From Lineus longissimus (Eukaryota > Nemertea > Pilidiophora > Heteronemertea > Lineidae), in NCBI RefSeq assembly GCF_910592395.1, contig NC_088312.1:6944001-7008000 (forward strand): a stretch of DNA of 64,000 nucleotides. Direction: 5' to 3'. The notes beneath the pieces are model-generated. The model searched no databases and was not told where the DNA came from. It saw only the letters and a list, made by a program, of their open reading frames with translations. Shown here piece by piece: positions 11,663-63,801 of the stretch (within the stretch, counting starts at the first letter, position 1; the number at the start of each line of letters is the position of its first letter). The translations under genes were made by a program, and so were the position numbers.

Positions 11663-11992
11663 TCACTCCCGCCTGTCCTTCATATGGATGGCGATCTCGT
11701 GACGTTTCATCCCCGTCATATCGGCAAATGCTTTCCCACAGTGGCCACAGACGTAAGGTTTCTCGCCAGTGTGGACCGACTGGTGTCGATCATATGAACA
11801 CTTATGCGAGAACTGCTTTCCACATGCGACGCATTTGAACGGTTTTTCACCGGTGTGACGTCGGATGTGAACCCGCAGCGCATAAATAGACGACAAGATT
11901 TGACCGCATATTCGACACTTTGGTATGTGTATTGGCATGGTACCGGTAGACGTCTTTGCTGCTTGAATAACCACTTTTGTTGAATAAGCCAT
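11663..11992 (-). CDS. L1 alternative terminal exon 6, three C2H2 fingers
   Basis: The acceptor TTTATCTTTCCAG is followed directly by ATG in phase 0. The 109-residue end contains three C2H2 fingers joined by TGEKP linkers: C-x2-C with Y-A-L-R-V-H-x3-H, then C-V-A-C and C-G-H-C. The last finger has an H-x4-H ending (H-E-I-A-I-H), a feature of most L1 last fingers. It would give the L1 protein sequence-specific DNA binding in the nucleus. The ATG could start a stand-alone short protein, but splicing to the linker is more likely. Confidence 0.8.
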   Translation of the reverse strand: MAYSTKVVIQAAKTSTGTMPIHIPKCRICGQILSSIYALRVHIRRHTGEKPFKCVACGKQFSHKCSYDRHQSVHTGEKPYVCGHCGKAFADMTGMKRHEIAIHMKDRRE

Positions 11993-12124
11993 CTGGAAAG
12001 ATAAAAGTATGGAGATTATCTTCATGACAGATACTAATTTACAATTCCTTTTGGGCATGATCATCCTTCTTCCTTCTCAGTCTTCATACATCTATCACAG
12101 GACTTGTTACTTACTTACTGAAAC

Positions 12125-12240
12125 ATTACATGAAATTATTAGAAAAATCTATTATCTCATGACACTTCACACCACTGATCACAATTGAATTATTAGAAAA
12201 ATCTATTATCTCGTGACACTTCACACCACAGATCACAACT
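12125..12240. repeat. 54-bp tandem duplication
   Basis: Two adjacent copies of a 54-bp block containing ATTATTAGAAAAATCTATTA differ at only a few bases. It lies between two L1 terminal exons. Confidence 0.8.
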
Positions 12241-12264
12241 TTCTTATTTGCAACCTCAAGTACG

Positions 12265-12620
12265 GTCGAACCTCTCTACAAGGAACACCCTTGGGGACTG
12301 AGAATGCTGTCCTCCTGATTACTAAGGCAAATTGAATAGAAACAACCATTTTGGGACCAAAATCAGTGTCCTTACGAGAGAAGGTGTCCGGCTGGCTGAG
12401 GCATTTGCTAAGGGAGGTTAAAAGGTGCATGCATGACGACCAGCAGTCATAGATATTTTCAATCTACTCATTGATGGTCAGATAATCAGTGTCCTCAGTA
12501 GAGAAGGTGTCCGGCTAACGGAGGTGTCCGCAAAGGGAGTTTCCAAGGTACATGCATGACAACCAGTAGTCATAGATATTTTCTATCTACTCATTGATGG
12601 TCAAGACAATTTTCAGTCAG
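12265..12620. repeat. Dispersed repeat copies within a 123-bp duplication
   Basis: The stretch 12,265-12,430 is a copy of the dispersed family (CCTCTCTACAAGG ... GCTAAGGGAGGTT). A block starting CATGCATGAC at 12,428 recurs at 12,551, 123 bp on, together with flanking CAGTCATAGATATTTTC, and encloses a second partial copy of the same family. Confidence 0.7.
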
Positions 12621-12729
12621 AAATGCACAAAAATGCCTATTATTTTTTTGGTAAATGATAAATGCAAAACCACCCTCGATGGTTCTCCAACCCAATAGTC
12701 AAATGAACGGTTCATCACCAGTCGGCATT

Positions 12730-13071
12730 CTACTTCTTCATGTCTGCCTTCTTCACATCACACCGTAGGTGATATTTCTTATGTCTATTGAGGTTTGAAT
12801 AGTCGCTATATAACTTCCCACAGAAATTACAGCCGTATTTTTTTTCCCCAGTGTGTGTTACAATATGACGTTTCATATTCGACGACTGCGTAAATGTTTT
12901 AGAACAAAATTTGCATTTATAGGGTCGTTCCCCTGTGTGGATTCGTAGGTGAACTTGTAGCCGATAAGTCCCAGCAAGCATTTTCCCACAGTACTCGCAT
13001 TTTTTCATCGTTGATCCAAGTTGTGATAGGTCGATGCTGCTATTTATTACCGTCATATCGTCTATTGTTCC
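12730..13071 (-). CDS. L1 alternative terminal exon 5, three C2H2 fingers
   Basis: The acceptor TTCTACCTTCAG opens phase 0. The 113-residue end carries three fingers (C-E-Y-C, C-K-F-C, C-N-F-C) with TGERP and TGEKK linkers and a basic tail, K-K-A-D-M-K-K. It is an alternative to the other L1 terminal exons. Helix residues follow S-S-N-M-K-R in the middle finger and Y-S-N-L-N-R in the last, without the R-x-D signature common in L3. Confidence 0.8.
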
Positions 13072-13459
13072 CTGAAGGTAGAAAGATGGAAAGGCTTGTG
13101 AGCTTTTTCATTGAGGGCAATGCACCAGTTTTTGATACTGTTTATATTACCGTATTTGTCACTCCCACTCACAAAGATGCAAATCAGATTTCATTGGGGA
13201 GAGATTGAGGAGAAAATGTGTCGACAGGAATACCCTCAACCAAAACAATTGATTGCTAGGCCTATATATCTTCTCTAAGTGCACTCCATCTTGTACCGCC
13301 ACACACGTGCCTTGTATCTATACAAAGAACTACAAAACGTAGAGGCCCCCAAAGTAGTGTCTGAATGTTCCATTCCAATATCTCTCCTGTAAATAACATG
13401 AACACTTGACACTCGCGTATCATACATCCAGAATAGAATCATATTGATGATGGGGCAAA

Positions 13460-13798
13460 CAGTGAATTGGCCTCTCATAAAGGATTTGATGCAAAATTAA
13501 ATGCCAGTCGAAAGTCCAAATCCACAGTGAATCATCCTCTAATGACTGTTACGATTACATTTAGATGCCAAATTGAATGCCAGTCTATGGACGAAATCTA
13601 CAGTGATTCCCCCACTCATGAACATTACAACTTGATGTCACATTGAAAGCCAGTCTATGGACCACATCTACCATGAATCATACTCTCATGAACGTTATGA
13701 TTTGATGCCACATTGAATGCCACTCTATGGACCAAATCTACAGTGAATTGACCTCTCATGAACATTACGATTTGATGCCACATTGAATGCCTTTCCAC
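13460..13798. repeat. 70-bp tandem repeats derived from a zinc-finger coding end
   Basis: Blocks with GATGCCACATTGAATGCC start at 13,774, 13,704, 13,634 and 13,564 (exactly 70 bp apart), with a fifth, more diverged, at 13,488. The copy at 13,704-13,798 is the end of the coding sequence of the L1 exon at 14,063-13,725, and the others lie in its 3' untranslated region. Since 70 is not a multiple of three, the copies are non-coding. The array arose by repeated duplication of the last half-finger and stop codon. Confidence 0.85.
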
Positions 13799-14063
13799 AA
13801 ACTCTACACTTGAATGGTTTCTCTCCTGTGTGGACCCTCATGTGATTCTTGAGGTGCATCGACTGGCAGAACTGTTTGGTGCATTTCAAACACTTGTAAG
13901 GCTTCTCTCCTGTGTGGATACGAATGTGTACAGCCAGATATTGTGCCGTTGAGAACTTTTTGCGACAGAGAGGACAAGTTTGTTTTGGTACACTAGTATC
14001 ACCTGTTCCTTGGTGTGATGAGTGCCCTTTTACCAGTTTCAACTGTTGATGACCCGTTGAAAA
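13725..14063 (-). CDS. L1 alternative terminal exon 4, three C2H2 fingers
   Basis: The acceptor ATTTATTTTTCAG opens phase 0; the end is 112 residues. Three fingers (C-P-L-C, C-L-K-C, C-R-V-C) are joined by TGEKP linkers, and the last ends H-E-R-S-I-H (H-x4-H). The sequence coding for the last half-finger is the source of the 70-bp array immediately downstream. The stop lies inside the newest copy, so further duplication there could alter the protein tail. Confidence 0.82.
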   Translation of the reverse strand, partial: FSTGHQQLKLVKGHSSHQGTGDTSVPKQTCPLCRKKFSTAQYLAVHIRIHTGEKPYKCLKCTKQFCQSMHLKNHMRVHTGEKPFKCRVCGKAFNVASNRNVHERSIHCRFGP

Positions 14064-14595: not shown

Positions 14596-14928
14596 CTAGG
14601 TCTTAGTTTTTTTCATACAACAGAGGGACTTATGTCTCCTGCAAGCAGACGAGTCACTGAAAGCTTTGCCACATGTATTACATTTAAATGGTTTCTCTCC
14701 TGTATGAATACGTAAATGAGTCTTCAAATGCGGCGACTGCGTGAATCTCTTATGACAGAAAGTACACGGAAACGGTCTCTCTCCGGTATGTAAACGTTTA
14801 TGGACATCCAGATAAGCCTTGCTTAGGAAAGTTTTCCCGCACTGTCTGCAGCGCAAAATATTCTGGTCTGACGTCGTCTGATTTGCTGGGAAAGATGTGT
14901 TAATCCTCCGATTATGAGAACCACCAAA
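14596..14928 (-). CDS. L1 alternative terminal exon 3, two C2H2 and one C2HC finger
   Basis: The acceptor TTTTTTCTTCCAG opens phase 0; the end is 110 residues. Fingers one and two (C-R-Q-C and C-T-F-C) are standard. The third (C-N-T-C) ends H-K-S-L-C, so the last zinc ligand is Cys instead of His, which still allows zinc binding. Linkers are TGERP and TGEKP. The exon is an alternative to its L1 neighbours. Confidence 0.82.
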   Translation of the reverse strand, partial: FGGSHNRRINTSFPANQTTSDQNILRCRQCGKTFLSKAYLDVHKRLHTGERPFPCTFCHKRFTQSPHLKTHLRIHTGEKPFKCNTCGKAFSDSSACRRHKSLCCMKKTKT

Positions 14929-15118: not shown

Positions 15119-15472
15119 TCAGAGCTGACATACTTTTGCCACAGGCAATCCCGTTCTTGCTTCCTTCATGTGGATGACAGCAACATGTCTGGCCATCGAC
15201 GAGCTCACGTTGAACATCCTGCCACAATATTTACAGGTGTATGGTTTCTCTCCTGTGTGCACCCGTAGGTGGCGCTTCATGTTACATTCCTGACTAAACG
15301 ATTTCCCGCAGAATCTACATGTATGCGGTTTTTCTCCTGAATGAGTCCCGAGATGTAATTCCAAGTCATTCCATGATTTAAACTGTTTGCGACACACAGT
15401 GCAGTTCAGTTTGCTACCGTACATGCATCTGCTTCGGCAGTTCGACAAGCGACTGCCCAGAGGCACCTGGTG
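15119..15472 (-). CDS. L1 alternative terminal exon 2, three C2H2 fingers
   Basis: The acceptor TTTCTTTTTCTAG at 15,473 opens phase 0, and a second in-phase acceptor, CAG, lies six bases further on, so two adjacent start points are possible. The end of up to 117 residues has three fingers (C-T-V-C, C-R-F-C, C-K-Y-C) with SGEKP and TGEKP linkers and an H-x4-H ending (H-V-A-V-I-H). The decayed exon at 15,627-15,499 resembles its first finger and lies only 26 bp upstream. Confidence 0.82.
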   Translation of the reverse strand, partial: HQVPLGSRLSNCRSRCMYGSKLNCTVCRKQFKSWNDLELHLGTHSGEKPHTCRFCGKSFSQECNMKRHLRVHTGEKPYTCKYCGRMFNVSSSMARHVAVIHMKEARTGLPVAKVCQL

Positions 15473-15498: not shown

Positions 15499-15627
15499 TT
15501 ACTGGTAGTGACTCTGAAATCTATCTGCACTTTTGAAGTGTTTGTTACACACTATGCAGTCGAGTTTAATTGTTGTAATCGTACAGATGTTTGCTGCAGA
15601 AGGTGGCGGATGACTGTCCAATTGACT
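15499..15627 (-). pseudogene. Decayed L1 zinc-finger exon
   Basis: A phase-0 acceptor (ATTACAGCACAG) leads into 42 codons ending K-L-D-C-I-V-C-N-K-H-F-K-S and Q-S-H-Y-Q before TAA. The finger has both Cys and one His, but the stop comes before the second His. It resembles the start of the neighbouring exon (K-L-N-C-T-V-C-R-K-Q-F-K-S). I read it as a partial duplicate that has lost its fingers. If spliced it would give an L1 form without DNA binding. Confidence 0.6.
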
Positions 15628-15759
15628 CTGTGCTGTAATTCGAAAAAGAAGGGGTGAAACATGCATGACTTTCATGCCAAGAATTATTTCCATGCTCATG
15701 TATATTTTTTTGGCAGACTTAGTTGCATACTTACCAACGTTGCCTTGGTAGACATCTGG

Positions 15760-16075
15760 TGCAACGCCCAACTCCTCTAGTATTCGGAGTCTGGACATAA
15801 GAAGCTTTGTACGAGTCCTGTGCAACGTACCACCCCCCTAGTGTAAGAGTTTCTCGATGTAGGCAGTTTTGAACGAGTCCTTTGCAACGTGCCACCCCTC
15901 TGGTGTAAGAGTTTCTTGATGTAGGAAGTTTTGAACAAGTCCTGTGCAACATACCACCCCTCTAGTGGTTTTGAATGAGTCCCCTACAACGCCGCGTATG
16001 CGCCACCCCTCTAGAGTTAGAGTTTCTGGACGTAGACCAGTTTGGATCGAGTCCGATGTAGCGCCCGCGTATGCC
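15760..16075. repeat. About 62-bp tandem repeats derived from a zinc-finger coding end
   Basis: The block GAGTCC with its flanks occurs at 15,813, 15,875, 15,937, 15,977 and 16,049 (spacings 62, 62, 40 and 72). The copy at 16,017-16,075 is the coding end of the L1 exon 16,340-16,017, which encodes L-H-R-T-R-S-K-L-V-Y; the other copies lie beyond its stop. Minus-strand readings of the array repeat the L-H-R-T-x-S/T-K-L pattern in shifting frames. Confidence 0.8.
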
Positions 16076-16340
16076 TCATCAGGTTATCCCGCCTGTTGAA
16101 CTTTTTCCCGCAGAATTGACACTTGAATGGCTTCTCACCGGTATGAATCAACGAATGTTTCTTCAGGTCATAATGAAGAGCAAACGCGTGCTGGCAGATA
16201 GGACACACATAGCGCCGCCTTGACAAGTTCTGAGCAGCATCAGGCCCGTGTCCAAGTACATCTTCAGTCCAATGTCTAGGTCGCTGTCCAGACACCCTTA
16301 AAGAGCCGACGAGGTAACCAGGTCTTTCAGTGTGGACGGA
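16017..16340 (-). CDS. L1 alternative terminal exon 1, two C2H2 fingers
   Basis: The acceptor GCCACTTTTTTCAG opens phase 0; the end is 107 residues. A non-finger lead of about 45 residues precedes two fingers (C-P-I-C and C-Q-F-C) joined by TGEKP. The second has helix R-R-D-N-L-M-R and an H-x4-H ending. It is the first terminal exon after the linker. Its last codons seed the 62-bp array downstream. Confidence 0.82.
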   Translation of the reverse strand, partial: SVHTERPGYLVGSLRVSGQRPRHWTEDVLGHGPDAAQNLSRRRYVCPICQHAFALHYDLKKHSLIHTGEKPFKCQFCGKKFNRRDNLMRHTRALHRTRSKLVYVQKL

Positions 16341-17696: not shown

Positions 17697-18194
17697 CTTT
17701 CCATCCTCTAGATCACCCCCTGGTGACATCCTGATAGAACTGAACTGTTCATTACTGTCAAAGTCTGTGCGAATCAGACCTGATACAGGAACAGGTTCAG
17801 TCATTTCTGTATCAGTCAGTGTGGTGTCTATGCCACTCTTTGTGTCTTGTGGTGAAATACTCAACGGAAAGAACACCTCACTTGCTGAGGTACATGTAGC
17901 GGAATCGTTAGAAGTTTGAAAATTTTGTTCTTGTGTTGGGGTAGATTCTGTCATTCGAGAAGCACCAGAAAATTTTGATGAAGATGAGGTTGACTGGGCC
18001 TGAGATGTCAAGGCCCATGTATAATGGCTTCTCCCAGAATGTTCAAATCTCGTCCGTGCCCCAGAATTTGGAGGTGACTGAGTACCGGTATGGGAAATTA
18101 TGTTTGCCAGCGCAAAGTCTGTCTGTTCGACGACCGAGAGATCTAACGTCGGCGGGGAATCAGGAATCTCTATCACAGATTTACCAAAAGAATT
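17697..18194 (-). CDS. L1 linker exon (exon B) with SIM-like block
   Basis: The acceptor TTTCTTCTTTCAG and donor AAAG/GTAGGG bound 166 codons, phase 0 at both ends. The exon starts near V-I-E-I-P-D-S-P-P-T-L-D-L-S, whose V-I-x-I core followed by acidic and Ser residues fits a SUMO-interacting motif. Later blocks F-F-P-L-S and P-V-P-V-S-G recur in the L4 linker, as does the end G-G-x-L-E and D-G-K. The rest is Ser/Thr-rich and probably disordered. It joins the coiled coil to whichever terminal exon is chosen. Confidence 0.82.
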
Positions 18195-18618: not shown

Positions 18619-19285
18619 TAAAAGCGTTTTCTTTGTTGCTTCATGTGCCCTCCTCTCCATCTCTAAAGATCGAACTTTCTCCTGATGTGCTCTTCGCTCC
18701 ATCTCCAACTGCTCTTTGAGTTCTGCATTCTCCTGCATCAGTTGATTCTGTAACTTCTTCAATAAACTGTCTTTAACAGCTATTTGTTCTTCTTTTAAGG
18801 TCAATGTCGATTTTAATTTTTCATATTCGCCTTGATGTTTTATCAATTCGGTACGTTTGTCTAAAAGTTCTAACCGCGTTGAATCTAAAAGTCCAATATT
18901 GCTAGTCAAATCTGATTGCACATGCTGTAACATTTGTTCTTTCACATTGAGTTCTGAGTGTGTTTTATTCAACAGTCTCTCTTTAGCATGTACTTCATCC
19001 TGCAGTCTAGAAATCTCTTCTGATCCAGCAGCAACTGCAGGTTTCAATTCTTCCAACTGCTTCTTACGAATGTCGATCTCGTTAGCAGCAATTTCCACTG
19101 AGTTTTCTTTCAATAAGAGTTCACCTTGGTACTTCGTCAGAAATGAAAAAAGTTCAGACCAGGCTTTTGTCAGAACTGCCCCCTTTTGGTGTAGCTCCAT
19201 TTGCATAGTTCGAAAAGCATTCTGTTCCATCATTTCTTGAGATTCTGGCAGAACTCCGTCCTTCATCTTCTCCTTCTCCATCAAT
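18619..19285 (-). CDS. L1 coiled-coil exon (exon A), start of protein
   Basis: The acceptor TCTCGATTGACAG is at 19,286 and the first ATG at 19,281 opens 221 codons to the donor (TTTTA/GTAATT). Residues 33-45 form the family block K-G-A-V-L-T-K-A-W-S-E-L-F (Trp 41). Residues 100-183 are six 14-residue repeats such as KERLLNKTHSELNV and KEQMLQHVQSDLTS, followed by a charged helix. This should form a parallel coiled coil for self- or partner association. The donor is weaker than in the other loci, so the exact end is less certain. I know no named family for it. Confidence 0.8.
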
Positions 19286-20293
19286 CTGTCAATCGAGAAA
19301 AACGGGGAATGGAGTAAGAAATCGAACAATATCATCACAACTAAACAAAACAAAAGTGACGAAAGGTCACATGTGGATGTGAATATGAAACAATGTAGGA
19401 GGTCCTATTTTTGCCACGCAGAGCAGTCGAAATACGATGTGATGCGCAATAATAAGAGTGTCATGGCATGGCAAATGGAACTTATTTCTTTTATGCATGT
19501 ATAGATATAGGACAACCTCCCTATAAGGACACTTGATTTGGTCCCAAATTGGATCTTTCCATTCAATTAGACCTCTCTAATCAGGACGCCTCCGTATTAA
19601 GGACAGCACTTTTCAGTCCCGAGGGTGTCCTTAATTAAGTTAACAGAAGAGAGGGCTTTGCCATTATTTTATTACATTCGTAGATATCAATCAACTGGTC
19701 TTAGATCGGTGTAACTAGAGTATTATATTACACATATATATATTGTCACAGATGTCTCTCTGCATTTGGAAACAATAACTTTTGTTTTCCTAGAGAAGCA
19801 ACGCAAAGGGTACAGAACACGTTTTCGGGTACACACTGTACATGTATAAGTGGTAGTGTATGATACACTAGAGCGTGACTATGCCAAGGATCCATTAGAG
19901 TCTCACAGGCCAATCTGTCATTCAAATGCAAAGTAGGTGATATAAATACATGGGCAATATGATTACTCACCAATAAATGTTATGAAGGGCACAATTATGC
20001 AATCAATAAATGAGAACCAGATGCTTTTTAAAGAGAACCCAGGTAATTTAATTGGATGTACGAATGGACTTTCGGAATTGAGAATCTGACTTCTATGGGG
20101 CGCAAATCCAACAAACATTTTCAAGCACTGTGTACGATAAAAAGGGAGGAAAGGAAAATGACACAATTCAGAAATCTTTTATCTATAATGTAAAGTGTAT
20201 ATTTCTACGGATTGTGCAGATTGATGGGTTAACTTCTTGATCAGTGTTGCTTTGGCAAGACTAATACCTCCTTGGCGCCCCATTATAAACAAC
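19286..20293. promoter_or_regulatory. Head-to-head interval between L1 and CDK5RAP1
   Basis: L1 runs left and CDK5RAP1 runs right from this 1-kb interval, so it should hold the L1 5' untranslated exon and one shared or two separate promoters. A dispersed-repeat copy occupies about 19,505-19,640. No TATA box could be assigned with confidence. Confidence 0.45.
19505..19640. repeat. Dispersed inverted-repeat family copy
   Basis: It contains ACCTCCCTATAAGGACAC and AGACCTCTCTAATCAGGAC with GTGTCCTTAATTAAG, matching copies at about 26,125, 45,545 and 48,785. Confidence 0.6.
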
Positions 20294-23200
20294 ATGGCTA
20301 CTCATGTGCGGTTTGGAGCAAAATTTATGCAACAAAATGCTAAAATACTCAATGAATATCAAAGACATCTTTTCGGACAGGTCATTCGAAAGAAGCATGT
20401 TTGTGGAACATTTTCGTGCCAAACTTTCCGAGTGGCACGGCGTAGCTTTAGTTCAGGGACAGTAAATAGATCAGAAAATGCCAACCTTTCAACAAAAACT
20501 TGCCCCGGTTGTTGCTGTTTGTGTTCATGTCTTTACTCTATTGATGGCACTGTCAACGGGAATGGTTCATATTCCATAAACACTAAAGACATTCATCCTG
20601 ATATCCGACCGCTCGTCCATGCAAAAACGTCAAATGTTTTTCAAGGGGGTGGTGGTTGTAGTTCATCAGCAGCATCGCCTTCAGAATCCTCATCCCAGAA
20701 ATCAAAGGTCACCTCTGGACCTGGTTTCCATGAATTCATGGCGGCAGGCAAAGATGATCTCAGTTTGGACAAGGGTGTGTTTGTGAATGAGGAGACTGGC
20801 ATTCCTTATGTGGAAGAAGCAAATATTGGTGGACATGGTAGGAAAGGTGTGTGTACAGACTAAGTCAACAAATAAACTAAAAACCATTTGTTCGTCTCAT
20901 GAGATTTCTCAAAATATGGTTATGTAGACAGAGGAAATTCTGTATGCTTACATTATTCAGGTATTGACGGTGCAATTTGGGAAATTTGAGAATTGGTGTT
21001 TGTAACCGTTCATGGTATAGCCTAAGCCACACAAAGTGGACTAGTTATGTATTTCGATAAAATCCTCACGAAGTATAAATGTTGTAACTCATGATATCTT
21101 TTTCAGTTCACATTGAAACATATGGCTGCCAGATGAATGTGAATGACACAGAAGTTGTTTGGTCCATATTGGAGAAAAATGGTTTCAAGAAAGCTGCTGA
21201 TTTGACTGAGGTAAGTCGACAGTAGGGTCAAGTTCCTTGGCTAGTTCGATATCAGATTCCAAAATCCTCAAGATATTGTTTTTCAGTATTTCACTTCTTT
21301 CACTTATTCTGACCTTAGGTTCCTAGCTATCATTTGGCAAGGATATAACTATTTTGCCTGTCTTGTACCTCATATCAACTTCGTCAGACTGACTACATGA
21401 AGAAAAACTAGTGATGACCATTTATTTATTTTGCAGAGCGATGTGACATTGCTGATGACATGCTCAATTAGGGAGGGTGCAGAACAGAAGATCTGGCATC
21501 GTATACAGTACTTGAAATCTCTGAAGAGACGAGGGAGAAAAGATAGGCCTGCAATGAAAATAGGTGTTTTAGGTAATGTTTTACCATCACACCGTGACAT
21601 ATTTTGCAAAATGTACCAAATGTATCTCAATAGCCAATCAAAAAGTGTTGTACGGAAAAGACAGCTCAACCCCTGTGGTGAGGCTTTTGATTGAAGAATT
21701 ATAAGAAACTGGCCATCAGCGCTGATATGTCAGCATTTGTCTTATCATGTCGGAGGTTATCAGAAGATAGTGATGTATGAAAATAAATGTTGGGGAAGAG
21801 CATAAATGGGCCCAATATCATTATCTTAAACTTCATCATGGCATAGTCTATGATTCATTGCTAAAGCACATCTACTCTTGATGACCGTGGGCCTACTGTG
21901 GGAGGCTTGTTTTCATCACTTCAAATTACATTAGATTGTGGAGAGTTCAAGTTTCCCTTTCCCGCCCTCACAGGTTGTATGGCAGAACGACTGAAAAAAA
22001 AGCTCATTGAAAAGGAGAAGATGTTAGATTTGGTCTGTGGTCCAGATGCATATCGTGATCTCCCACGGATGCTTGCCCAGACAGAATCTGGACAAGCAGC
22101 TGTAAACGTGCTATTGTCTCTCGATGAAACGTATGCTGATATAATGCCTGTGAGATTGAATCAAAATTCACCTTCGGCATTTGTGTAAGTTCATAATAAG
22201 TGTCTGGCCAAATCTTGTTTGAGAAGAAACCTTTTAAACATGGGGCATCACTTGACTTACTTCTACTACAAAGACCATGGCAGATTTGCTGAATCGGCAT
22301 TCAGCCATGCTGTTCAGAATACTTGACACAGATTTTCCAAAGCACTGATCCAAGGGGAGCCCGGTGGCACAATGGTTGTGCATTTCGTGCGCTAGATTGT
22401 GACTGCCCTTAGTTCTTCAGAATGGTTTCTAGATAGGCTTGGTAATACTTTATGTGATTGTAAAGTGCTTTAAGACAGTAGTTAGGATAGTGAAAAGGGC
22501 TGTATAAAAGCTCACTGTTATTATTATTGTGCTCTTCCTAGTTCTTCTCTTTGTGTTCAAGGTCAATAATGAGAGGCTGTGATAATATGTGTAGTTACTG
22601 TATTGTCCCTTTCACCCGTGGACGAGAGAGGAGTCGAGATATTGAGTCGATTCTAGAAGAAGTTAGGGAGCTTTCTAATCAGGTAAGGAGAAGAAGTCAC
22701 CTCCAGCAGCTCCTGGTGACAGCCTGAGAGACTATTTCTGTCAGCAATTCTTGAGCAGTTCATCGACCATTAAACTTTCCTAATGTTGTGCATGTTAGGC
22801 TGTTTTTGACGGAAATTTTGTACTATTTTGTGCACCGAAGTTGTCAAGGTGAATCTTTTAGTCATGATCACCTTCTTTATTATGTGATGGGCATGAAAAC
22901 CTCGAATGAGATTTTAAGCATGTAGGGATTGATGCAATTGATGAACTTATTTGTTCTCAAACAACTCCATTCAAGCTATGTTTTTGTGTACATCATATTC
23001 TTCTGTCCATCTAGGGTATAAAAGAGGTGACATTACTTGGCCAAAATGTGAACAGCTACCGTGACTTGTCTGAACTGCATCACAGCATCAGTGAAGACGA
23101 GGCATCAAGACTGAGTAAAGGCTTCAGTACTATTTACAAGCCGAAGAAAGGGGGAAGACGATTCAGTGATCTCTTGGATAAGGTATCACTTGTCGATCCA

Positions 23201-24661
23201 GAAATGAGGATACGTTTCACCTCGCCACATCCTAAAGACTTTCCTGATGAGGTGCTGCAGTTGATCAAGGAACGTCCTAATATCTGCAACCAGATCCACC
23301 TGCCTGCCCAGAGTGGTAACAGTGACATCCTCCGAGCCATGAGAAGAGGGTACACGAGGGAGGCATATCTTGATCTCGTCTATCATATATGGGAAACCAT
23401 CCCTGGTACGTATCTTAGCAGAGAGGTGTCCGCTAAGGGAGGTTCCACTGTAGATATAATTGGACCAACAGTTGATATATGTGACAGCGTTCCCCTTCAA
23501 GAGAGTGACACTTGGTATGCTACTGCCTGTATACTATACAGTGTCTTGACTCATTGACTCTAAAAAACAGAATTGTGTTTGTAATGCATTTTTCTATAAT
23601 TTTATTCTTTCTAAACTTTTCAGACGTATCACTTTCGAGTGATTTCATAGCAGGATTTTGTGGGGAAACTGAAGCAGCCCACGAGGAAACTGTATCGCTG
23701 ATGAGACTAGTCAAATATAATTTTGCATTCTGTTTTCCCTACAGTATGAGACAGGTGAGAGAACATTTAATCCTCGCAGCCAATCAGTTGTTCATTATTA
23801 CGGGAAAAATAATGAGCAAAATCAATGCTCTTACCGGGTAATAGCGATATGGGAATTAACTATAGTATTCTAGTTGCTATGATATTTTGTGACTCTTTCT
23901 TGATTTTGTTGTGACAGCCTTCTCTTTCTCCTCTCTCAGAAAACACACGCATACCACCGTTTGGTGGATGACGTCCCTGAAGACGTGAAGCAGCGCAGAC
24001 ATGAAGAACTGATCTCTGTATTCAGAGAGGAAGCTCAAAAGAAGAATATTGCGCAGGGAGGACAGGTGCAGCTCATTCTCATTGAAGGGGTAAGAGTTGA
24101 TCTTCATTCATGCGGAAAAATCGAAAAAAATGGCCCCTTACAGACGTAGTATGAATTACAGCTCCTATCCGATTTTACAGTATTTGAAAACTTGTCATGT
24201 GATGAAGTCATTTTACACCGGCAGCCATTTTTTGATAGGTTCAACAGTTAATAAACCCTTGTCCTTTACAGGAAAGTAAACGTTCTCCTCTGGATGTAGC
24301 TGGCAGAAATGATGGCAACACAAAAGTGATCATACCCAGAATTGATATCCCCTCGGATGATGGAAGATCTGCCCCACATAGCATCAAAACTGGAGATTAT
24401 GTTGCAGTTGAGGTAAGAGAACCACTTGTTATTGATTCATTTTCATTCTTTGTATTTACTCAAGCTTCCAGGACTTCAAGATTGTGTCTTTGTCTTAAAA
24501 GTGTGCAAAACTTATCTCAATCTATAGCTGACATCTTTCTTTTTGTATTTCAGATTACTGGAGGTAGTTCTCAGACCCTGAGGGGAAAGCCCCTATATCT
24601 CACAACACTGGAGAGATTTCATCGGCAGCCAGCTTTGGGTAGAGCAAAGGAAAACTGTTGA
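20294..24661 (+). CDS. CDK5RAP1: CDK5RAP1, mitochondrial tRNA methylthiotransferase
   Basis: A radical-SAM enzyme of the MiaB family that adds the 2-methylthio group to N6-isopentenyladenosine 37 of some mitochondrial tRNAs. Ten exons join in frame to 678 residues: 20,294-20,837; 21,107-21,210; 21,437-21,572; 21,974-22,184; 22,562-22,682; 23,015-23,405; 23,624-23,754; 23,940-24,089; 24,272-24,412; 24,554-24,661. The ATG at 20,294 starts a basic, mitochondrial-type leader. Visible are E-T-Y-G-C-Q-M-N, the second and third cluster Cys (T-C-S-I-R-E and G-C-M-A-E-R), the radical-SAM [10 protein letters not shown], and a C-terminal TRAM region. An unusual Cys-rich run ([10 protein letters not shown]) lies near residues 70-80. 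It is the only conventional gene here and unrelated to its neighbours. Confidence 0.93.
22353..22532 (+). mobile_element. tRNA-derived SINE in CDK5RAP1 intron 4
   Basis: GAGCCCGGTGGCACAATGG resembles the start of a tRNA gene and holds an A-box-like TGGCACAATGG. The 3' part (AAAGTGCTTTAAGACAG ... GGGCTGTATAAAAGC, then ATT repeats) is the kind of tail seen in invertebrate SINEs. It is in the sense direction of the gene; the B box is degenerate. Confidence 0.65.
23410..23455. repeat. Dispersed-repeat fragment in CDK5RAP1 intron 6
   Basis: GAGAGGTGTCCGCTAAGGGA followed by GGTTCCACTGTA is one end of the dispersed inverted-repeat family. Confidence 0.6.
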
Positions 24662-26858: not shown

Positions 26859-27500
26859 TCATTCATCCATGTTTGAGTTCATGAGTGGGCCATAAATCCC
26901 TTGTGAAGACAATCCAGAGTTACCCACCCCCGTCCTAGCTGCCATCTGTAAAACATCCAAACCAAAACCTACAGAATTTCTACTCTCATTCATCGAGACA
27001 CTCAAGTCAAATTCATCCTTTACTGTATTAAGTTCACTGGCACTTGTGTTCGACTCATTCACGTATTGCATTTTAACAGCAAGACTCTTGTTCGGCGCTT
27101 TCGATTTTATCTTGATCAAATCTGGGTGTCTTTTGCGCACGTTCAACCACCAGTCTTTACCAGGTAACCCACACTTGAAAGGATTCGGCATCTGCTTCGA
27201 ATCGAAGTATTGTGCCAATAAATTTAACAATTCCTTCCTGCCAAACTTCAGTCCTTTTTCAGTGTACTCAAGGCTCAGTTTGATGACCTCACGCTCGTCC
27301 TCCAAAGATATACATCCACCTCGACCATGACGTCCTCCCGGTTTCTTCAACTCCTTGACATATGTACCCAGTGTTGTTTTAGGTACGTTATAAATTTTTG
27401 CAGCCTTCCGAAGTGACATTTCACCTGTTTTCACTTTCGTCATGGCAATTTCCAATGTTGCTAAATCGTATGCATTGTTCAAACCTCTCGGACCCTTATT
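26859..27500 (-). CDS. L2 terminal exon: psq-type and CENP-B-type helix-turn-helix
   Basis: The acceptor TTATTGTTTTTTCAG opens phase 0; the end is 213 residues. Residues of about 10-50 form a psq-type helix-turn-helix (L-R-K-A-A-K-I-Y-N-V-P-K-T-T-L). Residues 65-130 match the second, CENP-B-like domain of pogo, Tigger and Jerky-type proteins, ending G-L-P-G-K-D-W-W-L-N and R-K-R-H-P-D-L. No transposase catalytic domain follows; a Ser/Asn-rich tail ends the protein. It replaces the zinc fingers of the sister loci, so L2 would bind DNA with a captured transposase-type domain. It is the only terminal exon I can find for L2. Confidence 0.85.
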   Translation of the reverse strand, partial: NKGPRGLNNAYDLATLEIAMTKVKTGEMSLRKAAKIYNVPKTTLGTYVKELKKPGGRHGRGGCISLEDEREVIKLSLEYTEKGLKFGRKELLNLLAQYFDSKQMPNPFKCGLPGKDWWLNVRKRHPDLIKIKSKAPNKSLAVKMQYVNESNTSASELNTVKDEFDLSVSMNESRNSVGFGLDVLQMAARTGVGNSGLSSQGIYGPLMNSNMDE

Positions 27501-30052: not shown

Positions 30053-30236
30053 TAAAGTGAATTTTGTGATACAATACACTGTTATTATACATATACTTTT
30101 CTGCAATAAAGAGGCTTTTTAGCCTGTGGTGTGGTGGCCAAGGGACAGCCAACTTTTTCATAGTAGATTGCTGGTTACGAAGTCCCCTACCCGGCCAGTC
30201 TTTTTTACTCTTTGTCTTATGTATTGGGCTACGTCG

Positions 30237-30455: not shown

Positions 30456-30563
30456 GCTAACAAAGACAATTGATGAAGTCTTTTTTGCGCCATGGTTGCG
30501 GATTGTAAACTCATTCCCTCTACGATTTCATGTGGTAAAGTTTCCCCTCTTCTTTCTTTCCAG

Positions 30564-40728: not shown

Positions 40729-40729
40729 G

Positions 40730-48068: not shown

Positions 48069-48317
48069 ATGTCTGAACTGGGACTGCATCCATCGGGACA
48101 CCCAGGCAAAAAACACTGCACGATATGTCGCAAAGAATTCGCCTCCCGCAGTGGTCTCTGGTACCACATGATGAAACACAAGACAGTCAAACCTGTGTAT
48201 AAGTGTCAATATTGTGGCAGAGAGTACGCTAGGAAAGACAGCCTATCACAGCATGTCATGCGCATGCACACTTATGTTGCTCAATTTCAGAACTTTTTGG
48301 AAAAGCCCACGAGTTAA
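48069..48317 (+). CDS. L3 terminal exon T16, two C2H2 fingers
   Basis: The acceptor TTATATATTTTCAG is followed by ATG in phase 0; 82 residues. Fingers C-T-I-C and C-Q-Y-C; second helix R-K-D-S-L-S-Q, ending H-x4-H. Confidence 0.82.
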   Translation: MSELGLHPSGHPGKKHCTICRKEFASRSGLWYHMMKHKTVKPVYKCQYCGREYARKDSLSQHVMRMHTYVAQFQNFLEKPTS

Positions 48318-48488: not shown

Positions 48489-48767
48489 GCCTATGTAAAA
48501 AGTCAAGTGACTGCCGTGACCTCCGCACTGGTTGCAAGTTCAAGGTCAAAGATTCAATTCTGCTTTGCATGTAACAGAAAATTCAGCTGCAAGTTTAACT
48601 TTGATCGTCATATGAATTTACACCGTTCTGATGGCTTTCAATACAAGTGCCCTCATTGTGCTGTGACGGCAAATCGCAAGGACAATTTAGTCAAACATGT
48701 GAGGAGTGTCCATAAATTTTTGTTCACAGATTCAGGACAATTCCTAAAAGTCTCCCGAGTCTCCTAA
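48489..48767 (+). CDS. L3 terminal exon T17, two C2H2 fingers
   Basis: The acceptor TTGTTTATTTTACAG opens phase 0; 92 residues. Fingers C-F-A-C and C-P-H-C. In the second the usual Phe is absent (A-V-T-A-N-R-K-D-N-L), a form also known from Drosophila lola fingers. Basic tail. Confidence 0.8.
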   Translation, partial: AYVKSQVTAVTSALVASSRSKIQFCFACNRKFSCKFNFDRHMNLHRSDGFQYKCPHCAVTANRKDNLVKHVRSVHKFLFTDSGQFLKVSRVS

Positions 48768-50114: not shown

Positions 50115-50387
50115 GCAAGTACGCTCAACATCCCAAACCCTCCCTCAGGTGCGCTGAGCCGGATGCAACGTGGCGTCCAACGATTCTGCAAGCTCTGTGG
50201 CAAGTTCTGCCAGACGAAACACACGTACAATGTTCACATGAGAACACACACGGGCGAGAAACCATTCAAATGCAATGACTGTGGACGCCTGTTTGCCCAG
50301 AGGTCTAATCTTCGAACACACGTGAAGAACAGACACAAGAAGATATTGCCAATGTTGCCTACACATCGTGCAGGACGTCTTCAGTGA
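50115..50387 (+). CDS. L3 terminal exon T18, two C2H2 fingers
   Basis: The acceptor CCTTCTCTTTGCAG opens phase 0; 90 residues. Fingers C-K-L-C and C-N-D-C with a TGEKP linker. The second helix (Q-R-S-N-L-R-T) lacks R-x-D. Last L3 terminal exon. Confidence 0.83.
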
Positions 50388-52569: not shown

Positions 52570-53278
52570 ATTTGACTGCCTCATTTTGATGTAGACTCGG
52601 GTAATGAAGGTCGGGACAATGCCTGAATCTCAAGACATGCAAGAAGAACAGAACAACCAGTTCATCAACATGCAGACTGAACTCCACAGCAAGGGCGCTG
52701 TGCTTACAAAAGCATGGTCTGATTTGTTCAGCTTTATAACGAAATACCAAGCAGAACTTATGGTAAAGGAAAACTCGGTGGAAATCGCAGAAAAAGAGAT
52801 CAGTGTTCGGAAAAAGCAGCTGGACGATCTGAAACCTGCTGTTGCTGCAGGGAACGAAGAAATCGCAAAGTTGCAAGAAGAAATTAACACCAAGGAACGA
52901 TTATTGTCAAAATCGCAATCAGAACTTTCTGTGAAAGAGTCAATGTTACATAGAGTGCAATCAGACTTGTCTAGTCACATGGAACTTTTAGAGAAATCTC
53001 GATCCGAGATTTTAGAAAAGCAAAGTGATCTTATACGACATCGTGGTGACTTAGAACGGTTAAAATCAGAATTGACCATCAAAGAGGAACAGATTCAAAT
53101 CAAAGACAATCTATTGCGAAAGTTACAAGATCAGTTAATGAAAGAGAATGCTGAATTGAAAGAACAATTAGATTTCAAATCTCAGTGTCTTGACGCAGAG
53201 CGTCGCTCGCTGGAAGCTGAGAGACGGTCACATGAGCTGTTGAAAAGGAGTCTTTGTGATAGGAATTTGCCATCATCA
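52570..53278 (+). CDS. L4 coiled-coil exon (exon A), start of protein
   Basis: The acceptor TTTATCTTGCAG precedes a short untranslated stretch and ATG at 52,604; 225 codons to the donor CATCA/GTAAGT. A second ATG at 52,619 aligns with the family start P-E-S-Q and is an alternative. The family block is K-G-A-V-L-T-K-A-W-S-D-L-F-S (Trp 38). Residues 97-180 are six 14-residue repeats such as KERLLSKSQSELSV, KESMLHRVQSDLSS and KDNLLRKLQDQLMK. It is closest to L1. Confidence 0.84.
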
Positions 53279-53613: not shown

Positions 53614-54228
53614 AAATCTTCCAGTACTGCCAGCCGAAATGTGATTGAAATTCCTGACTCCCCTCCAACGCTAGATCTTTCCGTTGAGCAAGGTGACTTC
53701 GGCCTTTCCAACATCATCTCAATGACAAGCGAGCAGCCACAGCCAATGGACCATGACTCACAACTTGATTCCCTTTCTCGCCTCGCCAGCAATACCTCTG
53801 CTTCACTTTCAGACTTTTCTAGAAGACTGACCTCGACAACAGGGAAGATACGCGATACCTCACAATCTTGGCGATCGTCACATTCAAAAGGCCCAAACGT
53901 GACACCAACAAAATCAAACGATTCCATGTTCGATTCAAATATTACACCGTCAAAATCAAGTGATGCTTTGTTCGGTGATAATGAGCCCTCCTCCGCAAGT
54001 GACGTTTTCTTTCCACTCAGTGTTTCACAAGACTCTAAAAGTGAACTTGACACTTCTGGTGCTATGTTGACTGATGACTTTAAATATTCACAATCTGGGC
54101 AAATGCCGGGCACGCCTGGTTCAGGGACAAGTGACAGTAATCAAGGCCCAGTGCCAGTATCGGGTCCGATTCCGAGTTCAGCGTCCATGTCCCCAGGTGG
54201 CGGTCTAGAAGGCGGAGGAGATGGAAAG
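53614..54228 (+). CDS. L4 linker exon (exon B) with SIM-like block
   Basis: The acceptor TCTTCTTCTTTCAG and donor GAAAG/GTAGGG bound 205 codons in phase 0. It carries N-V-I-E-I-P-D-S-P-P-T-L-D-L-S near its start, S-D-V-F-F-P-L-S in the middle, P-V-P-V-S-G towards the end and a final D-G-K, all shared with L1. T-P-T-K-S-N-D and T-P-S-K-S-S-D form a small internal repeat. Mostly Ser/Thr, likely disordered. Confidence 0.84.
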
Positions 54229-58942: not shown

Positions 58943-59284
58943 CTGCTGGTTGCGGCGAAAGGAAACACAGGAGCTTGGACAATTATAGACGTTGATCACG
59001 AAGGTGTTCCTCTGCTATGCAGATCCCATGTTTGCACATGGTGCGATAAGAAGTTTTCCACCCTTACCTCGTTGCTTGATCATCTGAGAGCTTGTCATTT
59101 TGGTCAGAAGCCCTATGGGTGTAAGCTTTGTGGGAAGGGGTTCACACAGTCTGCAAGTTTGACCCGCCATGCTAGGTGTCATACTAATGCGAGGCCATTT
59201 GTTTGTCGGGAATGTGGCAAATCTTACCAGAGGCTTGATCATCTCAAGAGACATATGGTGCACAGTCACCTCTTTAAGTCTTAG
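58943..59284 (+). CDS. L4 terminal exon, three C2H2 fingers
   Basis: The acceptor TTTGTCCTTGCAG opens phase 0; 113 residues. Fingers C-T-W-C (H-x4-H), C-K-L-C and C-R-E-C (helix R-L-D-H-L-K-R, H-x4-H), with GQKP and NARP linkers. Confidence 0.82.
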   Translation: MLVAAKGNTGAWTIIDVDHEGVPLLCRSHVCTWCDKKFSTLTSLLDHLRACHFGQKPYGCKLCGKGFTQSASLTRHARCHTNARPFVCRECGKSYQRLDHLKRHMVHSHLFKS

Positions 59285-59579: not shown

Positions 59580-60054
59580 ACCATGCCGACAGCTGTGACA
59601 GTGGTTATGCCATCGATGCCTTCAGCAACCGCCACCATGGCAATGTCATCAGCTATGATCCATGAGGCTGTGCCTGCAGCAACAACCACTGTGGCACTGC
59701 CATCAGTGACGGCCACAGTGGCAATGAAGTCGGTGGCTGTGACTGGCAATGACAATGGTGACAACAACAGTGGTGATGCCATCAGTGACCGCGACGACGG
59801 CTTCAACGAGAGCGGTGACCACGATGACTGCAACGGCAGCTACAGGGGCAACGCTGCCAATGACCACAACCTCTGCTGATGCAGGGATGACAATCCCTGT
59901 TGTCTCAACTGAAACATGGCGAAAATTTGAGAGAATTGGAACACGATATTCATGTATACAGTGTGGTATGCAATACAGGAAACAGACTGCCTTCGATCGT
60001 CACTTAGAGGTGCATCAGAAAGAGAGACCATTCAGTTGTCCTGTGTGTAGATGA
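59580..60054 (+). pseudogene. Decayed L4 zinc-finger exon with frameshift
   Basis: From a weak phase-0 acceptor at 59,579 the frame encodes a Thr/Val/Met/Pro-rich stretch (V-V-M-P-S, P-S-V-T-A-T). The same style of peptide continues one frame over from about 59,740, leading into one complete finger (C-I-Q-C ... H-x3-H) and then C-P-V-C-R followed by a stop. The frame change and the finger cut after its two Cys suggest a dying terminal exon. A sequencing error or extra intron could mimic the frame change but not the early stop. Confidence 0.5.
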
Positions 60055-60468: not shown

Positions 60469-60834
60469 AACATTACATGGAATGTGAAGAGACCTGTTTC
60501 TGTGGAATGGAAAGACCCCTCTCGGCCTTCACAATACAAGCACATCCCCTGCACGCTTTGCAAAAAGTCATTGTCATCACAAAAGGCATTGAGCCTTCAC
60601 CTTCGTACACATACAGGAGAACAACCTTTTAAATGTTCTGTATGTAAAATGTGTTTTTCTCAAGAAGGGAATTATGTTCGCCATATGAGACGACATACGG
60701 GCGAGAAGCCTTACATCTGTGCGCAGCCTCAGTGTGGGAAAGCCTTCAGTCGGAAGGACACACTCAAATTACACTTCATAAAGGAACATACACGTAGTGA
60801 CAAGTTGTATTTGCCTCCCCATCAAAATATCTAG
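60469..60834 (+). CDS. L4 terminal exon, three C2H2 fingers
   Basis: The acceptor TCTTTCACTTCCAG opens phase 0; 121 residues. Fingers C-T-L-C, C-S-V-C and a third with C-x4-C spacing (C-A-Q-P-Q-C), helix R-K-D-T-L-K-L, H-x4-H. Linkers TGEQP and TGEKP. Confidence 0.83.
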   Translation, partial: NITWNVKRPVSVEWKDPSRPSQYKHIPCTLCKKSLSSQKALSLHLRTHTGEQPFKCSVCKMCFSQEGNYVRHMRRHTGEKPYICAQPQCGKAFSRKDTLKLHFIKEHTRSDKLYLPPHQNI

Positions 60835-61247: not shown

Positions 61248-61562
61248 AGATTCTTGTATGGCCAAGCCAGGGACCTAACCCGGATGCCACCCCCATTCAG
61301 ACGCCCTCAGTCATTTGAACAGAAAATAAGGCCTGCAGACCACGTAGACAGGGGTGATGTGTTTGGCTGTCCGTTCTGTGAAAAAACTTTTCGTCTCCGT
61401 CCAAATTTGCGGAAGCATCTTCGTATTCATACCGGGGAAAAACCGTATGCTTGTTCTCATTGTGGCCGAACATTCAATCGGAGTGAAAATCTTAAACGAC
61501 ATGTGGTAACACTTCATGGTCTCGCTGTGTTGGCCAAATATGGTAGTCCTGACAAGGGTTGA
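61248..61562 (+). CDS. L4 terminal exon, two C2H2 fingers
   Basis: The acceptor TTTATCTTACAG opens phase 0; 104 residues. Fingers C-P-F-C and C-S-H-C (helix R-S-E-N-L-K-R, H-x4-H) with a TGEKP linker. AATAAA sites at 61,661 and 61,874 follow. Confidence 0.83.
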
Positions 61563-61891: not shown

Positions 61892-62098
61892 CTCTACTCG
61901 GTTCCACTTGTCTCTCTGTTTCAATTAAGTGTTAGTCTTCGGGCAAAACAAATGGGTATTTCATCTTATAGAGTATTCAAGTGTCATTTCTGTGCAAAGG
62001 AATTCCTATTTCAACGTAGTCTCTGTGTTCACCTTTCCACACACACTATCAATATGATGCAACATAGCAGGCAGAATCCTCGCCAAACCCACGTATAA
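61892..62098 (+). CDS. L4 terminal exon with a single C2H2 finger
   Basis: The acceptor TTGTGTTCTAG opens phase 0 into 68 codons ending TAA. It contains one standard finger: C-H-F-C, twelve residues, then H-L-S-T-H. It has no early ATG, so a search for ATG-started frames would miss it. The finger uses [11 protein letters not shown] better-looking acceptor at 61,971 is out of phase. Likely a real but minimal alternative end. Confidence 0.6.
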
Positions 62099-62123
62099 TA
62101 CACCTGTCTTCTATTCTTTGCAG

Positions 62124-62453
62124 TTCTCATCTCCCCTCGTGTCAAGACTATCTCATGGCCACGTTATCCGTACATCTCACCCTGCTATAAAAGTCCCTTC
62201 AGACCTCCAGATAGCTCGGCAGGCCCATCGTCTTGGTCTTGATCAAAAGATTGTGGCAAAATTCAGGGATAGTGATGAAGATAGTTGTCGGTATTGTAAG
62301 AAATATTTTGGACCTTTCCGCAAGGCCAATCTGAAGAAGCACGAAAGAATACACACAGGAGAGAAACCATACGCATGCCACGTCTGCGGTCGTCAGTTCA
62401 GTGATCCGTCGTCGAAAATCCGCCACATGCGTCTGCATAAAATTCCAAAATAA
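62124..62453 (+). CDS. L4 terminal exon, two C2H2 fingers, first one enlarged
   Basis: The acceptor TTCTATTCTTTGCAG opens phase 0; 109 residues. The first finger (C-R-Y-C) has fourteen residues between Cys and His instead of twelve; the second (C-H-V-C) is standard. Linker TGEKP. The stop overlaps AATAAA. Confidence 0.82.
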
Positions 62454-62454
62454 A
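62449..62454 (+). terminator. Poly(A) signal overlapping an L4 stop
   Basis: AATAAA spans the TAA stop at 62,451-62,453. A second AATAAA at 62,576-62,581 may be the active one. Confidence 0.5.
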
Positions 62455-62727
62455 CAGTCGTCTATGGCAAATGTGTTCTTTTTGTCAGTCCCAGTTGGTC
62501 TTAAAAATTCATCTGTGTTTCATTCCTTCCATTTGACAGACTTGAATCTCTGAGTTCTTGTAAAGATCTTTGACCAATAAAGTAGGTTAGATATGAATTG
62601 AAGTCTCAGTGTTTCTCTTTCCAAGGTCTACCCAAGTCAATTCCTGTAGATATTCAGCATAGTAACAACCCTGCATGGTCTCTGTAACAAAATTTATACA
62701 ACTAGTCTTCGTCTTTTGTTCTTGCAG

Positions 62728-63027
62728 TCCCTACCTCAAATCCCTGCTTTCAAAAGGCACATGGGATTTCATGTGTGTCCCACATGTGACAGGCTGTGCA
62801 GAACACGCAAAGCACTAGAAGAACACTACACTATGCACACTGGGGAAAAACCATTTAGATGCACATATTGTGGAAAGTGTTTCAGTCGGCGTGAATACTG
62901 GGAGAAACATCAACGCGTTCATACTAAGGAAAAGCCTTATAGGTGTAGCTTCTGTGATCGGGCGTTCAGTGATAGGGCAGCATTATCGAGGCATCGGCGA
63001 ATTCATACAAGGGAAATGGGAAAATGA
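62728..63027 (+). CDS. L4 terminal exon, three C2H2 fingers
   Basis: The acceptor TTTTGTTCTTGCAG opens phase 0; 99 residues. Fingers C-P-T-C, C-T-Y-C (helix R-R-E-Y-W-E-K) and C-S-F-C with TGEKP and TKEKP linkers. Almost the whole exon is finger, with little lead sequence. Confidence 0.83.
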   Translation, partial: SLPQIPAFKRHMGFHVCPTCDRLCRTRKALEEHYTMHTGEKPFRCTYCGKCFSRREYWEKHQRVHTKEKPYRCSFCDRAFSDRAALSRHRRIHTREMGK

Positions 63028-63414
63028 AAGAAAGTGGGGACCCCTGCAATGTGCTGCTGACATTTTTCAAGCGAGGACTTGGGTTGTTCCAGTTTGGAAA
63101 GTGCAATCTCGAAAAGATGCATCATGCAGTAATTTTGATAGTAGCAACAATCAGAAGGCCTTGTTTTGATCTTGCCTGATTGATCATGGATGTTGAGTTG
63201 GTATAGAGTCCCCAGGTTCATTTGACTGGTCATTATCTTGTGATTCGTTTGATAATATCTTATGATACCTTCTCTGATGATGTCAACCCTGATTTTCCAT
63301 CATTCAACTTCAGCATTTTTTCTTCAACAATATTTTGAAAAGCATTCGTTTGTCTATTGCAGCTAACATACGGTTGTCAATTTTCGAAGTGTATTCTCTT
63401 CTACACAGAACTGA

Positions 63415-63420
63415 AATAAA
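63415..63420 (+). terminator. Poly(A) signal, L4
   Basis: AATAAA, 388 bp after the stop at 63,027 and before the next acceptor. Confidence 0.45.
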
Positions 63421-63525
63421 ACTGGCCTATCTCTTCTTATTTCTTAAGTAGCTATGATCTCACGCTCTCACTCTCAGCTAACACAAATTTTCCAAAACTC
63501 AGCTGAAAACTTCTTACTTTTTCAG

Positions 63526-63801
63526 TTCCAGTTCAAAGTCGTGCTATCAGCGCCTAGTAAGAAGAGGAAACGTGATTGGAAAATAGGGAAATACGGCGAC
63601 TTCAATTGTGATATCTGCAATAAAAAGTTCCTTCGGCGGGATTCATATTCAAGACATATGAGATCACATAACAATGACCCATATGAATGTCCAGTTTGCT
63701 TGAAAAAGTTCAACGATCGTTCCAATTTCAAACGTCATTGTCGTTCTATGCACCCAAATCAAATCGGCGAGGATTACAGCCCCCTGAAAAGTTCAAAATG
63801 A
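63526..63801 (+). CDS. L4 terminal exon, two C2H2 fingers
   Basis: The acceptor TTCTTACTTTTTCAG opens phase 0; 91 residues. A Lys/Arg-rich lead (P-S-K-K-R-K-R-D-W-K) that could act as a nuclear localisation signal precedes fingers C-D-I-C (helix R-R-D-S-Y-S-R) and C-P-V-C. Last exon seen before the window ends. Confidence 0.83.
   Translation, partial: FQFKVVLSAPSKKRKRDWKIGKYGDFNCDICNKKFLRRDSYSRHMRSHNNDPYECPVCLKKFNDRSNFKRHCRSMHPNQIGEDYSPLKSSK

Follow-up and report, generated by a model that had tools for sequence, protein, structure and literature searches.

Four neighbouring loci on chromosome 5 (C5) of the ribbon worm Lineus longissimus very probably represent members of a large gene family, in which a constitutive exon encoding a putative coiled coil (exon A) and a linker exon (exon B) are cis-spliced to alternative terminal exons encoding DNA-binding ends (C exons). 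The loci, subsequently designated L1 to L4, reside in a stretch of 64,000 nucleotides (C5, 6944001-7008000; "the window"), and each of them comprises one exon A, one exon B and one to many C exons on a single strand. Profiles of exons A and B, applied to 154 kb composed of the window and its flanks (30 kb on the upstream and 60 kb on the downstream side), detected four exons of each kind and no more, all of them at L1 to L4, in agreement with a preliminary description of this DNA, which had proposed four loci of one coiled-coil, linker and DNA-binding-end design. About 32 intact terminal exons had been estimated therein; our count for the window, in keeping with this estimate, is 31 (L1, 6; L2, 1; L3, 18; L4, 6), comprising 29 exons of the C2H2 zinc-finger class, one of the Pipsqueak class and one unclassified exon. 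The notion of a shared design stands, with the corrections that L2 has one end only and that L4 continues past the window up to ~89471, with at least 38 C exons catalogued in all. Likewise, four loci are indeed present within 52 kb, but this picture is incomplete, as there are about 43 loci in the genome.

The published assembly of Lineus longissimus comprises 391 Mb in 19 chromosomes, with 23.94 Mb in chromosome 5, and this genome note does not use the word "zinc" in its main text (PMC8593623). No description of the A-B-C gene family was found in the literature covered, which consisted chiefly of titles and the openings of abstracts and included few subscription journals.

Results

Annotated isoforms share a common front and diverge in their ends

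A protein search with an L4 query yielded 71 proteins, namely 65 Lineus clusters from NCBI and six metagenome frames from JGI. The 65 clusters contain 188 member sequences (added by hand) and fall into 24 groups according to their A exon. The A and B exons of L4 agree at 100% identity with Lineus longissimus proteins in NCBI, e.g. LOC135487574 isoform X19. Proteins P0001-P0005 are identical up to residue 430, i.e. throughout the A and B exons of L4, and then continue into five different C exons, while P0044-P0046 have residues 1-399 of L1 in common, followed by three different C exons. Common fronts with divergent tails are likewise seen for P0006-P0009 and other groups; an exception is P0048, whose sequence departs from that of P0029 where exon A ends (residue 236). 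The tails of P0002 (61248), P0003 (62124), P0044 (14928), P0045 (16340) and P0046 (14063) start at acceptors that had been predicted beforehand, and those of P0001, P0005 and P0004 begin at 68391, 69484 and 71148, respectively, in the part of L4 beyond the window. Accordingly, all eight RefSeq tails that could be placed (L1, L4) fall in their own locus. Joining of common 5' exons to alternative DNA-binding ends is thus represented in RefSeq models at L1 and L4, and is indicated by phase and homology only at L2 and L3. The preliminary description had already joined the A and B exons to the zinc-finger exons, and the models at L1 and L4 do the same, which is the opposite of zinc-finger exons having first exons of their own. 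The proteins carry many unrelated automatic names, including sal-like, Krueppel-like, zinc finger 853-like and ERC-like, so that the family is hidden in the databases.

Finger exons begin in a uniform phase

Splice sites were scored with a generic consensus. Phase 0 is permitted throughout L1 to L4, i.e. at the A donors, the B acceptors and donors and the C acceptors. The 154 kb contain 59 open frames with at least two C2H2 fingers by pattern (53 on the plus strand and six on the minus strand, the latter all in L1), and 55 of these have their best-scoring acceptor in phase 0; in the remaining four, the phase-0 acceptor is 0.3-1.9 bits weaker than the best one. As a control, frames of at least 80 amino acids without fingers were addressed whose first 150 nt contain an acceptor of more than 3 bits, and here the best acceptor was in phase 0 in 24/87 cases. 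Finger frames of other clusters gave 24/27, 13/13 and 7/9, adding up to 99/108 frames with at least two fingers over all stretches, and those on other chromosomes gave 2/4. For the B exons, the best acceptor by score is in phase 0 at 25 of 29 loci. A catalogue of 61 C exons was compiled from these data, for which four frames were moved to the phase-0 site and the exons at 35383 and 36865, possessing one finger by pattern, were added.

Relatives of exon A are concentrated on chromosome 5

Exon A of L4 matches 48 places in the genome. One of these is the second piece of a single frame and four matches that are weak or fragmentary (on C1, on C12, and on C5 with E values of 6e-5 and 1e-4) were excluded, leaving 43 distinct A frames at E <1e-8, none of which contains internal stops; the lowest-scoring frames may represent other coiled coils. 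Chromosome 5 makes up 6% of the genome, yet carries 42 of the 43 A exons, the remaining one being located on C11. A B exon lies downstream on the same strand at 29 of 30 fetched A loci, and likewise at L2 and L3. C2H2 matches were assigned to chromosome 5 in 69 of 150 cases (by eye; 150 of 3,917 candidates scored). A second cluster on this chromosome contains 17 C exons at 5736501-5756500 and a further 10 at 5762501-5772500, exclusively on the plus strand, two of which correspond by eye to the tails of P0030 and P0032. The locus on C11 (L006) possesses five or more C exons with phase-0 starts. A word-based search, which may miss distant relatives, recovered relatives only from Lineus longissimus and the JGI metagenome frames; each of the metagenome frames represents a single A or B exon, and the closest are 80-86% identical.

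Six pairs of A exons are arranged head-to-head at distances of 1.4-3.6 kb, namely L2/L3 (28579-31233) and pairs on C5 at 6.73, 9.22, 11.35, 11.39 and 22.47 Mb. It is possible that such pairs share two-way promoters.

Predicted properties of exons A, B and C

Exon A of L4 is 63% identical to A of L1, 41% to A of L2 and 36% to A of L3, and near its start the residues L, K, W, LFS, YQ, L and KEN are invariant in L1 to L4. In all five A sequences tested, the heptad contrast exceeded all 200 shuffles, and exon A is therefore predicted to form a coiled coil. By sequence, exon A could be assigned neither to a known family nor to a relative of solved structure: in the four A frames, every Pfam family stays below its cut-off, supporting the earlier proposal that a coiled coil takes the place of a BTB domain. 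Neither BTB nor KRAB or SCAN was matched in the A and B frames of L1 to L4, in which the best Pfam matches stayed under their cut-offs.

Exon B had been described as a Ser/Thr-rich linker. It stands as a linker, but most B exons hold more than Ser/Thr. A stretch conforming to [VI][VIE][EN]I[PS]DSP, which resembles a SUMO-interaction motif (SIM), is present in 24 of 31 B exons and [LFM]DLS in 25 of 31, the SIM-like and CtBP-like motifs usually occurring together as VIEIPDSPPTLDLSV. According to the sections of the source considered, nemerteans possess CtBP, and motifs of the PLDLS type are its binding sites (PMC9907507). Since most B copies read TLDLS and one (L035) PPLDLS, binding of CtBP is a lead only.

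Among the 31 C exons of the window, 29 match C2H2 models of Pfam with E values not exceeding 0.01, one matches HTH_psq, and the exon at 34807 matches nothing in Pfam. The end of P0012, which belongs to another locus, includes a Tc5-type domain as well as a CENP-B-like stretch that falls slightly short of its cut-off. At the finger positions taken as DNA contacts, the residue signatures differ between all 61 catalogued C exons. Faster change at DNA-contact positions was rejected by comparison of the closest C pairs: contacts are identical at 8/12, 8/12, 5/12, 6/12 and 6/8 positions versus 13/24, 12/24, 14/24, 11/24 and 10/16 for the other core positions, three of eight pairs having been dropped for unequal finger numbers. 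The ratio of nonsynonymous to synonymous change (dN/dS) is ~0.2 in two C pairs, and synonymous change is saturated in the other four pairs listed. Two further candidates were discarded. A shared selector element upstream of the C exons was sought among k-mers of length 6-8, of which only acceptor-like ones stood out, and a poly(A) signal belonging to each C exon was not supported, as hexamers follow 29 of 61 exons compared to a shuffle maximum of 32.

The donor following exon B deviates from the consensus

RefSeq-derived junctions could be mapped at 25 of 30 loci. For the A donor, 21 junctions were usable (L025, L027, L041 and L046 were dropped because of a sliding junction), and it is an ordinary donor, with A at position +4 in 19/21 and GTAAGT in 15/21 cases. 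For the B donor, 22 junctions were usable; L024 (cut off), L025 (partial) and L043 (ambiguous) were dropped and L022 was shifted by one codon by hand. Here, position +4 is G in 21/22, and the consensus reads GTAGGGATC, which is non-consensus as a 5' splice site. By eye, 19/22 B donors start with TAGG, 11/22 contain UAGGG and 8/22 match GTAGGGATC exactly. An earlier scan had found GTRGGNAT in 21/29 cases, by a rule that favours this very sequence. Within the window, L2 with its single end uses GTAAGT after exon B, while L1, L3 and L4 have GTAGGG, GTGGGT and GTAGGG, respectively. The B donor of L3, gtgggtgtc, is identical to that of locus L044, which is used by RefSeq. Moreover, seven metagenome B frames continue with V-G-I beyond the donor (by eye), which fits the B-donor motif.

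In the portion of the source considered, UAGGGA/U is given as the motif of hnRNP A1 obtained by systematic evolution of ligands by exponential enrichment (PMC4932749), and this motif is present in the B donor at about half of the loci. A concentration of the hnRNP A1-type sequence TAGGG in the C arrays was rejected (sense/antisense: L4 15/12, L3 4/5, L1 5/2), and no enrichment was detectable in the 200 nt upstream of the 61 acceptors (3 sense, 6 antisense).

Positions of exons and neighbouring features

L1 is encoded on the minus strand. A short 5' coding exon (19733-19765, end approximate), to which the N-terminus MQRDICDNIY of P0044-P0046 maps, is joined from 19765 to the predicted acceptor 19285 in the RefSeq models. 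Exon A, identified by the A profile (18619-19285), has a weak donor (gtaattataa), and exon B, identified by the B profile (17697-18194), carries the linker with VIEIPDSPPTLDLSV and the donor GTAGGGATG. The C exons follow at 16017-16340 (tail of P0045), 15119-15472, 14596-14928 (tail of P0044), 13725-14063 (tail of P0046), 12730-13071 and 11663-11992. L2, likewise on the minus strand, consists of exon A (28579-29226 from the first ATG; A profile), exon B (27840-28313; B profile), which has the ordinary donor GTAAGT and lacks the VIEIPDSP/LDLS block, and a single terminal exon encoding a Pipsqueak helix-turn-helix (26859-27500; HTH_psq, E 5.9e-9). Between L1 and L2, an ordinary multi-exon gene is located on the plus strand (20225-24661); recognized by eye, it resembles CDK5RAP1, a radical-SAM methylthiotransferase, and its first frame yielded no match in Pfam. 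A low-complexity G- or C-rich repeat (30070-30460) lies between the head-to-head loci L2 and L3, just upstream of exon A of L3.

L3 is located on the plus strand and starts with exon A (30564-31233; A profile), the metagenome relative of which, P0072, is 86% identical, followed by exon B (31468-31971; B profile) with the donor GTGGGTGTC. A possible C exon at 34807-35217 is basic, including the very basic stretch ERQRRHRARLKNDPQKLQEVRQRQKMYAQKNRQ, and has a weak acceptor. Further C exons are found at 35383-35640, 36865-37281, 37730-39316, 40372-40713, 42458-42727, 43102-43368, 43591-43818, 44111-44347, 44597-44815, 45119-45511, 45807-46079, 46357-46620, 46883-47101, 47334-47648, 48069-48317, 48489-48767 and 50115-50387. 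The end at 37730-39316 comprises 528 amino acids, with four fingers ahead of several TKYHQA-like repeats.

L4, also on the plus strand, comprises exon A (52570-53278, ATG at 52604; A profile, 100% in RefSeq P0001-P0005), exon B (53614-54228; B profile, donor GTAGGGATC, RefSeq junction) and, within the window, C exons at 58943-59284 (phase-0 acceptor second best by score), 60469-60834, 61248-61562 (tail of P0002), 62124-62453 (tail of P0003), 62728-63027 and 63526-63801, with 32 more beyond the window. Three finger exons look broken, i.e. the frame stops within or after one finger: 15502-15837 on the minus strand, and 59743-60051 and 61892-62095 on the plus strand. Such exons are a sign of exon birth and death.

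Discussion

Our model treats the A-B-C genes as encoding transcription-factor-like proteins with exchangeable ends and assumes that the constitutive exon A and the regulatory linker exon B of a pre-mRNA would be joined to one of one to dozens of C exons by alternative cis-splicing. Each C exon begins in phase 0, contributes the stop codon and encodes a separate DNA-binding domain, in most cases with two to four C2H2 fingers. The coil of exon A may pair subunits, perhaps across isoforms and loci, and exon B could recruit partners via the VIEIPDSPPTLDLSV block, whose SIM-like and CtBP-like motifs suggest repression. The choice of the end may be tuned at the B donor, the non-consensus start of which is conserved across paralogues. 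Beyond this, we consider it possible, at rather less than even chances, that the whole constitutes one combinatorial system on a single chromosome, with ~40 loci, probably several hundred ends, subunits mixing via related coils and a dedicated donor GTAGGGATC choosing the end, and that it evolved in ribbon worms separately from the insect BTB genes. The plan of one front with many ends seems to have been invented twice, in insects and in ribbon worms.

Several observations weigh against the A-B-C model. The isoforms are predicted annotation models, and none was obtained for L3, which contains 18 of the 31 C exons of the window: among 3,754 candidates scored, no RefSeq protein of 212-674 amino acids carries the A and B exons of L3, although a longer protein, e.g. 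one including the 528-amino-acid C exon at 37730, would exceed this range and escape detection, and the sole match is the metagenome frame P0072. For L2, no protein was present among the 7,999 candidates scored in the profile search, and its B exon is devoid of the block found in other B exons. Shared descent of the paralogues weakens the donor statistics, yet synonymous sites are near saturation (proportion of synonymous differences 0.83 between the A exons of L4 and L1). Finally, the C exons are not followed by a clear excess of poly(A) hexamers (29/61 in sense and 22/61 in antisense orientation; shuffle mean 23.3, maximum 32), and gaps to the preceding C exon are as short as 65-190 nt in some cases, which leaves the 3' ends of the mRNAs unexplained.

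The same lack of clear poly(A) signals after the C exons would fit trans-splicing as in mod(mdg4), by which C exons transcribed from their own promoters are joined to a separate A-B transcript, possibly of another locus; the uniform phase 0 would permit such joins between loci. However, in the stretches covered the C exons lie downstream of their own A and B exons on the same strand, for which cis-splicing suffices, no opposite-strand ends were seen, and the placeable RefSeq tails reside in their own locus in eight of eight cases, rendering trans-splicing unlikely. The absence of an L3 protein in the range searched and the broken appearance of some finger exons could also mean that C exons, especially in L3, represent independent zinc-finger genes or relics, each starting from its own first exon, and that exons A and B form another gene. 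We regard this as very improbable: RefSeq joins A and B to C exons at L1 and L4, the exons of L3 match the others in phase and strand, the L3 B donor equals a RefSeq-used donor, and the metagenome relative has retained exon A of L3 at 86% identity.

A different matter is the role of the same gene structure. The clustered KRAB zinc-finger genes of mammals recognize and silence mobile DNA, and the A-B-C genes could serve this purpose rather than a lola-like control of cell identity. Consistent with such a role are the clustered expansion on one chromosome, the broken C exons, the different contacts in 61/61 catalogued exons, the CtBP-like and SIM-like block in exon B and the end of P0012 with its transposase-type DNA-binding domains. 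However, the closest C pairs change no faster at contact positions and dN/dS is ~0.2 in two of the pairs, and we therefore consider a role in the silencing of mobile DNA doubtful, albeit clearly less so than trans-splicing.

A gene plan with one front and many ends is now seen in a phylum distant from the insects, where the front part is unrelated and dozens of loci follow the plan. This makes it testable whether such genes arise each time for the same reason, be it to specify cell identity or to recognize mobile DNA. Within these genes, the donor joining A to B (mostly GTAAGT) differs from the donor joining B to C (consensus GTAGGGATC), which provides a handle on the choice of one end among dozens.

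Known systems share individual features with the Lineus genes. The vertebrate KRAB and SCAN zinc-finger genes form lineage-specific chromosomal clusters of C2H2 proteins, and RefSeq borrows such names for Lineus isoforms; there, however, each gene has its own finger array, whereas in Lineus many finger exons share one front. Dscam-type clusters also contain many alternative phase-matched exons in one gene, but these are internal, while the C exons of Lineus are terminal. Drosophila tramtrack, fruitless and Broad place alternative zinc-finger ends on a common front as well, differing from the Lineus genes by their BTB domain and by having few ends each. In the parts of a source considered here, lola is described with 20 isoforms, 17 of them with fingers, mod(mdg4) with at least 30 alternative 3' ends, mostly of the FLYWCH type, on a common front, and TTK-type BTB domains as not found outside Arthropoda (PMC11426971). 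Similar to lola, the Lineus genes combine a common N-terminal part, which is predicted to oligomerize, with alternative C-terminal ends, mostly of the C2H2 type. In contrast to lola, this front is a putative coiled coil instead of a BTB domain, and there are ~43 loci versus one gene, L4 alone having 38 catalogued ends. With mod(mdg4), the Lineus genes share the many 3' ends, and the last common intron, which is the control point in mod(mdg4), has a conserved start in Lineus. However, mod(mdg4) has a BTB front and mostly FLYWCH ends, and all of its isoforms arise by trans-splicing, some of the acceptor exons being located on the opposite strand, whereas only same-strand downstream arrays are seen in Lineus. 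Since they lack a BTB domain, the Lineus genes are not members of the lola/mod(mdg4)/ttk-type BTB factors; they appear to follow the same principle as lola and mod(mdg4), with a different front part and at many loci.

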